Source: Alcaligenes faecalis | GTDB lineage: Bacteria; Pseudomonadota; Gammaproteobacteria; Burkholderiales; Burkholderiaceae_B | Reading direction: 5' to 3' | DNA: 64,000 bases | Assembly: GCF_041521385.1 (NCBI RefSeq) | Contig: NZ_CP168006.1 | Location: forward strand, 2,378,373 to 2,442,372 | Shown here: positions 37,901-41,916 of the stretch, piece by piece | How the letters are laid out: each line of letters starts with the position of its first letter | How positions within the stretch are numbered: the stretch's first letter is position 1 | Made by a program: the position numbers and the translations under genes | Notes under the pieces: model-generated | Database searches by the model: none | What the model saw: the letters and a program-made list of their open reading frames with translations, nothing else | What the model was told of the DNA's origin: nothing

Positions 37901-38335
37901 ATGAGCTATTTTCTGTTGCTGTTGGTCCATCTTTTGGCTGCCATTTTTTTCATCGGCACGGTGTTTTTCGAGGTGCTGATGTTGTCGCCTCTGGCGCGCC
38001 ATGTGTCCCGGCCATCAATGCGCGAGTTTGAGCATGCGCTGGGGCGCCGAGCACGCCGCATCATGCCTTGGGTTCTGTTATTGCTCTACGGCGCGGGTTT
38101 GAGTCTGGCCTGGCAGCATCGGGCCTTGTTTGAGTTTGGTGGGGCCAGGGCCTGGATTCTGGGTTTGAAAATCGCCTTGGCATTAAGTGTATTTGGACAC
38201 TTCCTGTCCGTCATGGTGATGAGCCGACGCAAGACCATGACGGCGCGGCGCTCACGGATGATTCACCTTAGTGTTTTTGCGCACGTATTGTTGATCGTGG
38301 TGCTGGCCAAGGCTTTGTTTTATTGGCCGCTTTAG
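37901..38335 (+). CDS. small integral membrane protein (CopD-like)
   Basis: Protein of 144 aa with four predicted helices: residues 2-30 (FLLLLVHLLAAIFFIGTVFFEVLML), about 55-72, 85-105 and 122-142. Conserved-looking His residues occur in the first and fourth helices, and the arrangement resembles the CopD/DUF2269 group of possible haem or copper membrane proteins. It begins 29 bases after dctM and may be read with the TRAP operon. Function is not assignable from sequence. Confidence 0.7.
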   Translation: MSYFLLLLVHLLAAIFFIGTVFFEVLMLSPLARHVSRPSMREFEHALGRRARRIMPWVLLLLYGAGLSLAWQHRALFEFGGARAWILGLKIALALSVFGHFLSVMVMSRRKTMTARRSRMIHLSVFAHVLLIVVLAKALFYWPL

Positions 38336-38404: not shown

Positions 38405-38637
38405 AGGCTCGAGGCCGTGGGGCTCTGGGGGTGGGCTGAGCACTTGCCGGTGCTGCGCACCGGTGCCCTTGTCAGGAGATAGCGCAGGGCGCATCCTGAA
38501 CTCGCACGATGGTTTGTCCACCGGACAAACCATAAGCGTCGTGCTCAAACAGCAGGATGCTTGTACCCCTGCGCTATCTCCTGCCCGCGGCAAGTACTCT
38601 GACCCGCCCACCCCCAGAGCCCCACGGAATCGAGCCT
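38405..38637 (+). repeat. structured inverted-repeat element, copy 1
   Basis: A 233-base element bounded by 32-base inverted ends (38405-38436 and 38606-38637) with two mismatches. Inside lie nested helices: a CCGGTGC-TGC-GCACCGG hairpin, a 17-bp CAGGAGATAGCGCAGGG stem, GCATCCTG/CAGGATGC, GCACGA/TCGTGC, and an apical GGTTTGTCC/GGACAAACC. The core shares long identical blocks with copy 2, which lies inverted at 38922-39154. It could be a structured RNA, a bacterial interspersed repeat or a non-autonomous mobile element. Confidence 0.85.
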
Positions 38638-38690
38638 TCACACCGTTTTAGTATCTCGGTCTTGCAACATTGCTCCAGTTGGTTTTGCAT

Positions 38691-38738
38691 TTGCTGGTTG
38701 CTGGTTGCTGGTTGCTGGTTGCTGGTTGCTGGTTGCTG
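38691..38738 (+). repeat. heptamer tandem repeat (TTGCTGG)n
   Basis: Nearly seven head-to-tail copies of TTGCTGG lie in the interval between the two structured elements. No gene spans it. A second heptamer array with a related but different unit is at 45442-45510. Confidence 0.9.
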
Positions 38739-38921
38739 TGTGCTTTGTGTCGTGTGCCATGCATCATGCGTTGTTTGCCGTTTGATGCTTGTGTTTGTTT
38801 AGCAGCCTATGTCTCGGTCGTTTTCTTGCGCCCTGCTCAGGGACGTCATAAATATGGTGATGGAACTGAGGTCATAAGGGTAAAAGAAGCCTTACAGCTT
38901 AAGGGCAGAGAATTATTGTGA

Positions 38922-39154
38922 GCCATTCAGGGACAGGGTTTGGGTCTCGGGGCGGTTCAGAGTACTTGCCGCAGGCGAGTGCGGGATCCGGGATGCAAGC
39001 GCCCTGTTGTTTGAGCCCGGCGTTTGTGGTTTGTCCGGGGGACAAACCACCGGGCGAGTTCAGGGTGCGCCTGGAGCCTGTGCTCGACAAGGGAACCGGT
39101 GCGCAGCACCGGCAGGTGCTCAGCCCGGAGACCCAAACCCTGTCCCTGAATGGC
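38922..39154 (-). repeat. structured inverted-repeat element, copy 2
   Basis: Also 233 bases, opposite in orientation to copy 1. Its inverted ends (38922-38948 and 39128-39154) are a perfect 27-bp match but unrelated in sequence to the ends of copy 1. The core keeps the same blocks, for example GCCGGTGCTGCGCACCGGT, GGTTTGTCC...GGACAAACCA, and GCGGCAAGTACTCTGA, while internal stems change in compensatory fashion. It ends 53 bases before the topB terminator. Confidence 0.85.
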
Positions 39155-39206
39155 GTCTTCACAGAGGCTTCCTTCCTTAGCCTGCAATCTCTAAACGATT
39201 GCTCAT

Positions 39207-39237
39207 AAAAAAAACGGCCTCCCAAAAAAGGGAGGCC
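39207..39237 (-). terminator. topB terminator
   Basis: On the minus strand GGCCTCCC-TTTTTT-GGGAGGCC is followed by G and eight T, 26 bases after the topB stop. Confidence 0.92.
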
Positions 39238-39262
39238 ATTTCTTCCAACCAAGCCGAGCTTT

Positions 39263-41854
39263 TTACTCCGCCTTGCTGGCCGTCTTTTTGGCAGCTGTTT
39301 TCTTGGCAGCCGTCTTCTTGGCAGCCGTTTTCTTCACTGCTGTTTTCTTTGCTGCTGCTTTAGTCGCCGTTTTCTTGGCGGCTGTTTTGCGCCCTGGCTT
39401 CTCTGGACGAGGCTCGAACTCAAAGCCGATCTTGCCGTCGGCCTGACGCACCAGGAAGGCCTTGAACTTGCGGTTGGTACGCGAGGACACGAAACCATCC
39501 AGTAGATCTGTCTTGCCTTCGCCCAACAGCTTGGCCATCTGCTCGCGGGTAATTTCCTGTTGCAAGATCACCTTGCCGCTACGGAAGTCGCAGCTCTTGG
39601 AGGGGCCAACGGACTTTTCGCACAAGTAACGCAAGCCGTGCTCAAAGACGGAGGACTGGCACTTGGGGCAGGGGCCGACTGGGGTTTGGCCGCTGAAATC
39701 CAGGGCTTCATCGTCATCGTCGTCGTTCTGGCCGAAGTCGAACTCCAGCTTGTACTCGTCGGTAATGCGCAGCAGTGCCGCAAAGGGACGACCCATCTTG
39801 CTGATGAAACCGGGCAACGGGCCCAGTTCTTTCTTGGCCAGCAGCTCTTCCACTTCGGGCAGTTCAAAGGTGCGACCACCTGGGTGCTTGCCGATGGAAA
39901 AGTCGCAAGCCGTGCAGGCATAACGACGGTAATTTTCTTTGACCACGCCACCACATTTCGGGCATGGAGTCTGCAAGGTCGCGTAATCACCCGGAACCGT
40001 GTCGCGTTCGTACTCTTTTGCGCGCTTGACGATTACTTGCGTCATTTGCGCGATTTCACGCATGAACACGTCGCGGTCCAGTTGACGTTGCTCGATCTGC
40101 TTGAGCTGGTGCTCCCACTCGCCAGTCAGTTCGGGCGAAGTCAGTTCGCTAACCCCCAGACCTGACAGCAGTGTCATCAGTTGACGTGCCTTGGCGCTAG
40201 GAACCAGTTCGCGGCCCTCACGACGCAGATAGGCTTCGTTCAACAGACCTTCAATAATGGCTGCACGAGTGGCTGGTGTACCCAGACCGCGCTCGGACAT
40301 GGCTTCGCGCAAGGCTTCATCGTCGACCAGCTTGCCCGCGCTTTCCATGGCCGACAGCAAGGTCGCTTCCGTAAAGCGTGCAGGCGGCTTGGTGGCCAGG
40401 GCCTTGGTGTTCACATCTTCAGTGCGGACCTTCTCGCCATCGGCAACCGGCACCAGAGAGGCATCTTCACCTTGAGCATCGCGGCCATAAATAGCCAGCC
40501 AGCCCGGTTTGACCAGCACCTTGCCTTCCGTCTTGAAGTGGTGACCGGATACCTGCGTGATACGTGTGGTGACGCGGAACTCCGCGGCCGGGAAGAACAC
40601 GGCCAAGAAGCGACGACTGATCAGTTCGTAAATCTTGTGTTCGGCATCGCTCAGTTCCCGGGGCACCTGCAAGGTGGGGATAATGGCAAAGTGATCCGAA
40701 ACCTTTTTGTTGTCGAAGATCCGACGGTTGGGTTTGACCCATTTTTGTTCGACCACTTCCTGTGCAAATGGCTGCACCGACGCACTGGCAGGCGTGCCGC
40801 TGTCAGCCAGCGCACGCATGGTTTCTTGCACCGTGCTTATATAGTCTTCGGGCAGATAGCGCGAATCCGTACGTGGGTAAGTCAGTGCCTTGTGGCGTTC
40901 GTACAGCGTCTGCGCCAAAGACAAGGTGGTCTTGGCGGAGAAGCCGAAGCGCGAGTTGGCTTCGCGTTGCAGCGAGGTCAAATCAAACAAGGCGGGCGAC
41001 ATTTGCGTGCTGGGCTTGGACTCCTCGGTGACCACACCGGGCTGTTCGCGGCAGGCAGCCACAATGGTTTGAGCGGCGGTCAGGGACCACAGACGCGAGT
41101 CTTTCTTCTCGGGGTCGTGTTCGTCCTTGACGAATTTGGGGTCAAACCAGCGGCCAGTGTACAGGCCGGCAGCGGCAATAAAGTCTGCGTGTACTTCCCA
41201 GTAATCACGTGACACGAATTGGCGAATGCGGTTCTCGCGCTCGTTCACAATAGCCAGCGTGGGGGTTTGCACACGGCCTACGGGAGTCTTGAAAAAGCCG
41301 CCATCCTTGCTGTTGAAGGCCGTCATGGCACGCGTGCCATTAATGCCCACCAGCCAGTCTGCTTCCGCGCGCGAACGGGCCGCTGCTTCCAGCGGTTTCA
41401 TGTCCTCATCATTACGCAGATTTGCAAAGGCTTCACGGATCGCCGATTGCGTCATCGAACGTAACCAAAGCCGCTGCACCGGCTTTTTCGCTCCGGCGTA
41501 TTGCATAATGTAGCGAAAAATCAGCTCACCCTCGCGCCCTGCGTCACAGGCATTGATAACCGCGGTGACATCTTTGCGCTTGATGAGCTTGACCAGCAGT
41601 TTTAAGCGTTCAGTCGATTTCTTGTCCGTCGGGTTGAGCTCAAACTGAGGAGGAATAACAGGGAGATGTGTGAAGCTCCACTTGCCGCGGACCGGATCAT
41701 TAGGGGCCACCAGGCCCAGCAGATGGCCGATGCTGGAGGCCAGCACATAGCGATCGCTTTCAAAATAATCACCTTCTCGAGTGAAACCGCCCAATGCCCG
41801 CGAGATATCTACGGCGACTGAAGGTTTCTCGGCAATGATTAGTGTTTTATCCAT
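39263..41854 (-). CDS. topB: DNA topoisomerase III (type IA) with histone-H1-like tail
   Basis: Type IA topoisomerase of 863 aa that decatenates and relaxes DNA. The N-terminal Toprim domain starts MDKTLIIAEKPSVAVDISRA, with CDAGREGELIFRYI. The catalytic Tyr is Tyr326 in LTYPRTDSRYLP. Two C-terminal cysteine zinc-binding modules follow (CPKCGGVVKENYRRYAC...C and CPKCQSSVFEHG...C). The last ~45 residues are repeats of KKTAA, as in bacterial H1-like proteins, and probably aid DNA binding. ATG at 41854 is where homology starts; the open frame extends ten codons upstream. In related genomes, from memory, topB follows smg; here another gene on the opposite strand separates them. Confidence 0.94.
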   Translation of the reverse strand: MDKTLIIAEKPSVAVDISRALGGFTREGDYFESDRYVLASSIGHLLGLVAPNDPVRGKWSFTHLPVIPPQFELNPTDKKSTERLKLLVKLIKRKDVTAVINACDAGREGELIFRYIMQYAGAKKPVQRLWLRSMTQSAIREAFANLRNDEDMKPLEAAARSRAEADWLVGINGTRAMTAFNSKDGGFFKTPVGRVQTPTLAIVNERENRIRQFVSRDYWEVHADFIAAAGLYTGRWFDPKFVKDEHDPEKKDSRLWSLTAAQTIVAACREQPGVVTEESKPSTQMSPALFDLTSLQREANSRFGFSAKTTLSLAQTLYERHKALTYPRTDSRYLPEDYISTVQETMRALADSGTPASASVQPFAQEVVEQKWVKPNRRIFDNKKVSDHFAIIPTLQVPRELSDAEHKIYELISRRFLAVFFPAAEFRVTTRITQVSGHHFKTEGKVLVKPGWLAIYGRDAQGEDASLVPVADGEKVRTEDVNTKALATKPPARFTEATLLSAMESAGKLVDDEALREAMSERGLGTPATRAAIIEGLLNEAYLRREGRELVPSAKARQLMTLLSGLGVSELTSPELTGEWEHQLKQIEQRQLDRDVFMREIAQMTQVIVKRAKEYERDTVPGDYATLQTPCPKCGGVVKENYRRYACTACDFSIGKHPGGRTFELPEVEELLAKKELGPLPGFISKMGRPFAALLRITDEYKLEFDFGQNDDDDDEALDFSGQTPVGPCPKCQSSVFEHGLRYLCEKSVGPSKSCDFRSGKVILQQEITREQMAKLLGEGKTDLLDGFVSSRTNRKFKAFLVRQADGKIGFEFEPRPEKPGRKTAAKKTATKAAAKKTAVKKTAAKKTAAKKTAAKKTASKAE

Positions 41855-41916
41855 ATGATTCCAGTGACAGCAACTGCGCTGCAATGCGCGAAATGATACG
41901 AGGTGCTTATCCCTCT

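Follow-up and report, generated by a model that had tools for sequence, protein, structure and literature searches.

A superfamily of large, structured extragenic repeats found in Alcaligenes faecalis and possibly retained as 3′-border elements

The window, a 64,000-nucleotide stretch of Alcaligenes faecalis DNA (NZ_CP168006.1, positions 2,378,373 to 2,442,372), carries two head-to-head copies of an element that almost certainly represents a real, structured and undescribed superfamily of extragenic repeats. Its novelty is judged against Rfam 15 and the literature and collections searched, and appears to hold there. The copies would be REP/REPIN-like but far larger repeats folding as a single strand. 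That they are now kept as 3′-border elements is the reading we tentatively favour, at somewhat less than even confidence.

Results

Two inverted copies with individual outer stems

An earlier note on this DNA had described two inverted copies of an unclassified element with long shared sequence blocks. Both copies and blocks were recovered, copy 1 at 38405..38637 and copy 2 at 38922..39154. Each folds far better than its dinucleotide shuffles (z −13.9 for copy 1 and −10.6 for copy 2, with 0 of 200 shuffles as good in either case). The G.U tolerance of the fold assigns copy 1, for which orthologues were compared, to the minus strand and copy 2 to the plus strand. The conserved core of 177 positions occupies 38433..38609 (minus) in copy 1 and 38950..39126 (plus) in copy 2, where R1, a covariance model built from 41 copies (alignment A2), scores 205.9 and 183 bits, respectively.

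In copy 1 the fold defines an outer stem, P1, with a left arm (38405..38436) of site-specific sequence and a right arm (38606..38637); these arms differ between sites. Hairpin P2 (38446..38464, minus), supported by fold and covariation, has the apical loop C(GCA)G on the folded strand. The P3/P4/P5 arm (38473..38583, minus), in which P3, P4 and the apical hairpin P5 covary, holds a constant internal loop, CTGTTTGA / GAGTT on the folded strand. The apical hairpin P5b was placed by folding at 38510..38532 (minus) in copy 1 and at 39027..39049 (plus) in copy 2, and in other copies its loop is occupied by IS1111-type elements. Read along the folded strand, the order is P1, P1b, P3, an internal loop, P4, the CTGTTTGA / GAGTT loop and P5; beyond P3′ come hairpin P2 and then the closing arms.

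Each copy had been said to be closed by its own terminal inverted repeat. This stands in so far as each outer arm pair is self-complementary, but the arms are not common to the copies, the outer stems of copies 1 and 2 being mutually unrelated in sequence. Across 39 sites, identity was 0.728 in the core and 0.455 in the 5′ outer arm, compared with 0.383 for shuffled arms, so that the shared terminal inverted repeats of an IS-derived MITE are lacking.

The spacer between the head-to-head copies (38638..38921) contains a tandem run of the heptamer GGTTGCT at about 38691-38738. The pair lies between convergent neighbours: on the left an open reading frame of 144 aa (37901..38335, plus), with no Pfam family at E 0.001, and on the right a DNA topoisomerase gene (39263..41848, minus; Topoisom_bac and Toprim in Pfam; 39263-41884 when counted from the first start). 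A hairpin and T run at 39207..39237 (minus), read from the sequence as an intrinsic-terminator-like signal for the topoisomerase gene, stands between that gene and copy 2.

Covariation and the folded strand

The folded-strand alignment A5 contains 41 sequences and 56 pairs, which were formed in 95.7% of 2295 cells. Two-sided changes affected 42 of the 56 pairs in 487 cells, whereas shuffles gave 135.7 (none of 500 reaching the observed count) and slid control alignments 64-88; the sequences are related, and these counts, like the wobble counts below, are non-independent draws. The covariation score was 0.599, compared with 0.172 for shuffled and 0.081-0.103 for slid alignments. The covariation check proposed in the earlier note thus gave a strong signal, beyond both kinds of control. 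Mean column identity was 0.907 at unpaired and 0.751 at paired positions: the loops are fixed and the stems free.

The strand first proposed had to be reversed. In that orientation, the non-Watson-Crick cells of the core were 65 A.C, 13 G.T and 42 other (two terminal pairs omitted), and because A.C on one strand is G.U on the other, the folded strand is the opposite one. Symmetric scoring of the outer stems gave 61 G.U versus 16 A.C (sites 20 to 3). Three stricter settings gave 46:10, 27:10 and 17:3, and the bias was weak (92:65) with loose stem ends. The excess of G.U over A.C therefore places the working strand on minus in copy 1 and on plus in copy 2. The folded strand is antisense to the nearest gene.

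Of 101 copies within the genus, 89 had C(GNA)G as the apical loop of P2 and none had it at P5, where C(GGG)G prevailed (83). Among copies from the remainder of the family, C(GNA)G was found at P2 in 10/22 and at P5 in 0/22, and in other orders at P5 in 41/59 and at P2 in 41/59. GNA loops closed by C-G are described as extraordinarily stable DNA mini-hairpins (PMC4686876). The C(GNA)G triloops suggest a DNA form, without proving it. The working form may be RNA or single-stranded DNA, as these loops favour DNA and the position at transcript ends favours RNA.

Copies in this genome and in relatives

Beyond the two copies described in the earlier note, the element gave 43 blastn matches in its own genome (4,147,169 bases, one contig). 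R1 had 35 matches there at E ≤ 1, and 25 of these, scoring at least 161.7 bits, are full-length copies; fragments and IS-split copies add to these. Six of the full-length copies belong to a 45,250-bp tandem triplication; on C1, at about 3,023,000-3,114,700, three element pairs (L002-L004, L024-L026) lie exactly 45,250 bp apart.

The search in relatives that had been suggested returned many further copies. Nine of ten genomes of the genus, own genome counted, have the element, as do 70 of 250 genomes (23 of 43 genera) in the family sample. Only three of 349 genomes matched in the order sample: the own genome, one family member and one weak match outside the family. Within the genus, the element searches found no copies in one genome (G005), and another (G004) had 80 model matches at E 1e-6, versus 14-33 in seven related genomes.

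The pattern CTGTTTGAGC N3-32 GCGAGTT occurred 62 times in 18 of 185 genomes of the class, up to 17 times in one, and its reversed control 5 times. By eye, the tip crowns a long hairpin in about 16 of 20 folded pattern loci, mostly with the same helix order; L120, L124, L126 and L127 do not. A second model, R2, was built from other-order copies only (A4, 21 sequences) and leans on sequence because RNAalifold gave it only 17 pairs. It matched elements of this family well, the best at E 2.5e-8 (L101), and always on the folded strand where R1 had a match too. Its matches to the window copies, at E 7e-4 over part of the model and at E 0.05 for copy 2 (38969-39121, plus), are weak for these copies alone, and in the own genome it had no match at 1e-4 under strict filters. 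By R2, a related element is present in 50 of 274 class genomes and in 3 of 200 genomes of the phylum sample, all three of the same class. Many of the other-order elements have a second hairpin, GGTTACTTTTCTTTG...CAAAGAAAAGTAAC in type, on their 3′ side, which gives the impression of a larger unit (several of L113-L132, L310, L324, L361, L363).

When 19 letters of the tip were held fixed, at least 117 matches were obtained, spread over many phyla; Bacteroidota, Bacillota and Patescibacteria are represented, as are the genera Haemophilus and Variovorax. Most of 22 folded loci bear this tip on a long hairpin, as judged by eye, and R2 matched 31 of the 80 tip loci tried, a partly circular result given that the motif lies within the model. 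The 19-letter-tip loci of the various phyla may not all be homologous. The suggestion of a family-specific RNA is unsupported, because the same helix order occurs in other orders and the tip in other phyla.

Selection on orthologous copies

Copies were fetched from four further species, giving five genomes in all, and among the fetched copies 28 of 47 site groups proved common to two or more of the five species. Over 27 orthologous groups, identity was 0.90-0.97 inside the element and 0.87-0.92 in the site-specific outer stem, compared with 0.61-0.70 in the upstream flank beyond 80 nt; on the downstream side it was 0.71-0.89 past the stem, at the start of the adjacent gene. Identity of 90-97% beside an upstream flank of 61-70% indicates that copies are selected in place.

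Of 5793 reference Watson-Crick pairs that could be read without a gap in 62 orthologues, 5258 were unchanged. The changed ones comprised 290 with two-sided changes that were still Watson-Crick, a figure that includes whole-module swaps and does not stand for 290 events, and 98 G.U, 57 A.C and 90 other, a modest wobble bias (groups 17 to 7). Two-sided change was present in 24 of the 27 groups. Among six groups laid out in alignment, whole modules were swapped between orthologues: P5 in group A and in group C, P3/P4 in group D and the stretch from P3 to P5 in group E, a pattern that may be read as gene conversion between copies.

A neutral, functionless long palindrome, with arms kept complementary by template-switch repair, would likewise leave stem sequences free to vary. 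It leaves unexplained the G.U bias, the conservation of the loops and the high identity beside a diverged flank, and we regard this already disfavoured explanation as very improbable.

Comparison of orthologous loci revealed no clean empty site at which a target-site duplication might be read. At L182, one genome (G008) has an internal deletion in which the inside is lost and another (G006) has a different right-hand neighbour; at L022, the copy in G006 is interrupted by an IS and that in G008 looks intact.

Gene context and pairing

Context was scored at 33 of 39 representative sites, with both neighbours called by a simple hexamer gene finder. Neighbouring genes were convergent at 22 sites, in the same direction at 11 and divergent at none. 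Control gaps of at least 100 nt, from the window and eight 20-kb stretches of relatives, included 16 convergent and 16 divergent among 68 (binomial p 2e-7 for 22/33, with paired and triplicated copies counted separately and hence not independent). The element had been proposed to lie at 3′ ends, and its place between convergent genes bears this out. At 28 of 33 sites the element is faced by the gene that lies 3′ of the folded strand, and the gene on the 5′ side is often several hundred nt off.

Close pairs are arranged head to head, with the folded strands pointing apart, in 26 of 26 cases of neighbours within 1.5 kb among the matches listed, a count that spans six genomes and in which orthologues repeat. 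Elsewhere in the class, 17 of 19 close neighbours were head to head and none the reverse, also among the matches listed. In Haemophilus influenzae (L363, 2340-2830), and also at L313 and L323, a head-to-head pair stands between genes pointing away from it; by reading, the genes at L363 encode a LysR-type regulator and ketol-acid reductoisomerase. These three Haemophilus loci contradict a strict convergent rule.

Convergent location is what would be expected of a double-stranded DNA element, that is, a cruciform or a gyrase or nucleoid-protein site absorbing supercoils, a role for which BIMEs between convergent genes have been proposed. A duplex or two-sided cruciform, however, predicts no asymmetry between G.U and A.C, and yet such asymmetry was observed; stems of unrelated sequence also speak against recognition of a duplex sequence. 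We therefore consider this explanation unlikely.

Equally unlikely, in our view, is that each copy is a gene of its own for a small RNA transcribed independently of the others. The covarying structure, the conserved loops and the excess of G.U over A.C on one strand would fit such RNAs. However, the region upstream of the element showed no sigma-70 enrichment at 39 sites (3.33 versus 3.83, 3.89 and 3.94 in three control regions) and its sequence is not conserved, and the lack of a conserved or promoter-like upstream region argues against an independent RNA gene. Twenty-five paralogues in a single genome would also be unusual.

The folded strand of single copies lay on the leading-strand template in 60 cases and on the lagging-strand template in 31, among the matches listed in six genomes; one genome shows the opposite bias and orthologues are repeated in the count. 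A preference for the lagging-strand template, considered as a candidate, is unsupported by these figures. Copies look sparse near the presumed terminus: of 143 among the matches listed for six genomes of this genus, 10 fall in the final fifth of the way from ori to ter; the terminus was assumed to lie opposite dnaA, and 6 of these 10 copies come from one genome (G002).

Mobility and IS1111-type insertions

The main alternative to a border element is a giant REPIN-like selfish repeat, on whose folded single-stranded DNA a transposase, of the HUH or another type, would act in trans, any host function being absent or incidental. The repeat is dispersed, multi-copy and patchy, its head-to-head pairs resemble the HH dimers described for REPs (PMC3733652), and the C(GNA)G triloops and the hairpin modules exchanged between orthologues fit as well. 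A mobilising gene or transposase partner was not found by PF01797, flank and neighbour searches. Y1_Tnp (PF01797) was detected at E 1e-4 in 0 of 10 same-genus genomes, and neither R1 nor R2 located the element in any of 50 PF01797 loci with 1.5-kb flanks; a RAYT was accordingly rejected as the mobiliser. PF01797 occurred in 19 of 23 element-rich versus 11 of 20 element-free genomes, which is no tight link. No specific recurrent neighbour gene was found at 117 motif loci, where the largest neighbour cluster consisted, by reading, of ABC-transporter ATPases (6 loci). Selection in place at sites shared between species (28 of 47 groups) and the leading-strand bias of single copies among the matches listed also count against a purely selfish repeat, which we hold to be possible though rather unlikely. 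As for the earlier suggestion of a non-autonomous mobile repeat, it may describe the origin of the family, but many site groups are shared between species and no mobilising gene was found by these searches.

Two of three apparent transposase neighbours (L294, L338) proved to be AraC-type regulators, some query open reading frames being wrong. A genuine Y1_Tnp lies about 500 bp away at L122, and a transposase-search hit about 3.9 kb from the motif at L293.

IS1111-type elements (Transposase_20, DEDD_Tnp_IS110) lie within the apical hairpin of four copies of the own genome, and a fifth has a 345-nt IS1111-type piece there. The same IS (97.5% over 1401 nt) is present in one orthologue in G006. 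The element is a target of IS1111-type elements and not their product; published members of this group target REPs and attC sites (PMC11187229). Near-identical IS copies were seen in or beside L015, L016, L017, L019 and L027, and at L412 and L167, and pieces in L027, L155, L157 and L165. This IS has a 342-aa transposase and, by eye, subterminal inverted repeats of about 11 bp.

Comparison with known systems

At the curated threshold, Rfam 15 gave no match for the window or for 20 loci with relatives, and weaker matches within the element, below that threshold, appear to be due to chance. Others at 39160-39260 mostly coincide with the topoisomerase terminator and were disregarded. Searches of plasmid and phage collections by blastn with copy 1 returned no match, and viral contigs had no exact match of one apical hairpin. 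A literature search by motif letters, with most subscription journals not covered, produced no title on the element among the papers listed. The description in the earlier note of an unclassified, highly structured, multi-copy element is thereby upheld, with 25 full copies and strong covariation. A small protein was considered and judged improbable: both strands are open in places, yet stems swap while loops stay constant. Long open reading frames cross the element at L297, L302, L311 and others (peptides ...QLFERSEF...) and may be annotated as hypothetical proteins.

REPs, REPINs and BIMEs fall into GTAG and CGTC superfamilies in which head-to-head dimers predominate (PMC3733652). As portrayed there, REPs resemble the element in being extragenic, palindromic, multi-copy and mostly head-to-head, in lying between convergent and unidirectional genes and, for the CGTC class, in occurring also without a transposase (PMC3733652). 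Head-to-head dimers predominate in the element too, among the matches listed. REPs are, however, single hairpins of 20-40 bp with a GTAG or CGTC tag (PMC3733652), whereas the element has a 177-nt core in a branched fold of at least 230 nt (233-nt copies, several helices), constant internal loops and covarying site-specific stems. Unlike REPs and REPINs, it showed no link to Y1 transposases, and no RAYT gene flanked by the repeats was found. As to an unpaired end tag, many copies by eye end in GGCGTY on the folded strand, but with GGC inside the stem; another subtype lacks this ending.

The RepRanger palindrome catalogue includes Alcaligenes faecalis (PMC12306157) and gives 3,552 'REPs' and 1,170 terminators in a genome possibly of the same genus; its palindromes are short (default ≤32 nt), and the account consulted describes no long branched element (PMC12306157). 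The R0, R2, R6, R178 and R200 repeats of Pseudomonas fluorescens are likewise intergenic, of 50-352 bp, with a tail-repeat-tail bias, and all five families are described with two identical inverted repeats around a variable core (PMC2718517); by description, the constant loops and variable stems set the present element apart. Bor-1 to Bor-6 of Bordetella, also betaproteobacterial, are repeated structured stem-loop families, and Bor-2, listed as 167 nt and intergenic (PMC2267715), is likened to the element by description only. Integrons offer a further parallel. Their attC sites form variable stems when a single strand folds, and occur in cassette arrays beside an integrase. Single-strand fold, variable stems and targeting by some IS1111 members (PMC11187229) are shared with the element, whose copies, unlike those arrays, are dispersed.

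Discussion

We suppose an ancient spread of the family as a non-autonomous, REP/REPIN-like repeat, after which copies would have been retained as 3′-border elements. The transcript of the 5′-side gene would cross the intergenic region, allowing the element to fold, and the folded element may end, block or protect the transcript ahead of the opposing gene; a head-to-head pair would be a border for both directions. The link from fold to transcript border is a conjectural part of this model. Several observations weigh against a 3′ border. The patchy presence (50/274 class genomes; none in one same-genus genome and 80 matches in another) is more like a mobile element, and the 5′-side gene, which would have to supply the transcript with the fold, often lies several hundred nt distant. 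The C(GNA)G triloops suggest DNA, the three Haemophilus loci depart from the convergent arrangement, and the wobble bias is weak with loose stem ends and modest at orthologous sites.

A wider proposal, which we regard as doubtful, is a pan-bacterial superfamily folding as a single strand, each member a long hairpin with site-specific stems, the common tip CTGTTTGAGC...GCGAGTT (folded strand), often a C(GNA)G loop and a head-to-head arrangement. One conserved protein would read the folded strand, be it RNA or single-stranded DNA, and the superfamily would stand apart from REPs, MITEs, attC sites and known RNA families.

If true, these findings would add to the bacterial extragenic repeats a large structured family in which selection on single copies is measurable. 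It would become possible to test if repeats of this kind are parasitic or serve as 3′ borders, and to ask what protein recognises the constant loops. The element would also explain some spurious open reading frames and represent a target class for IS1111-type elements.
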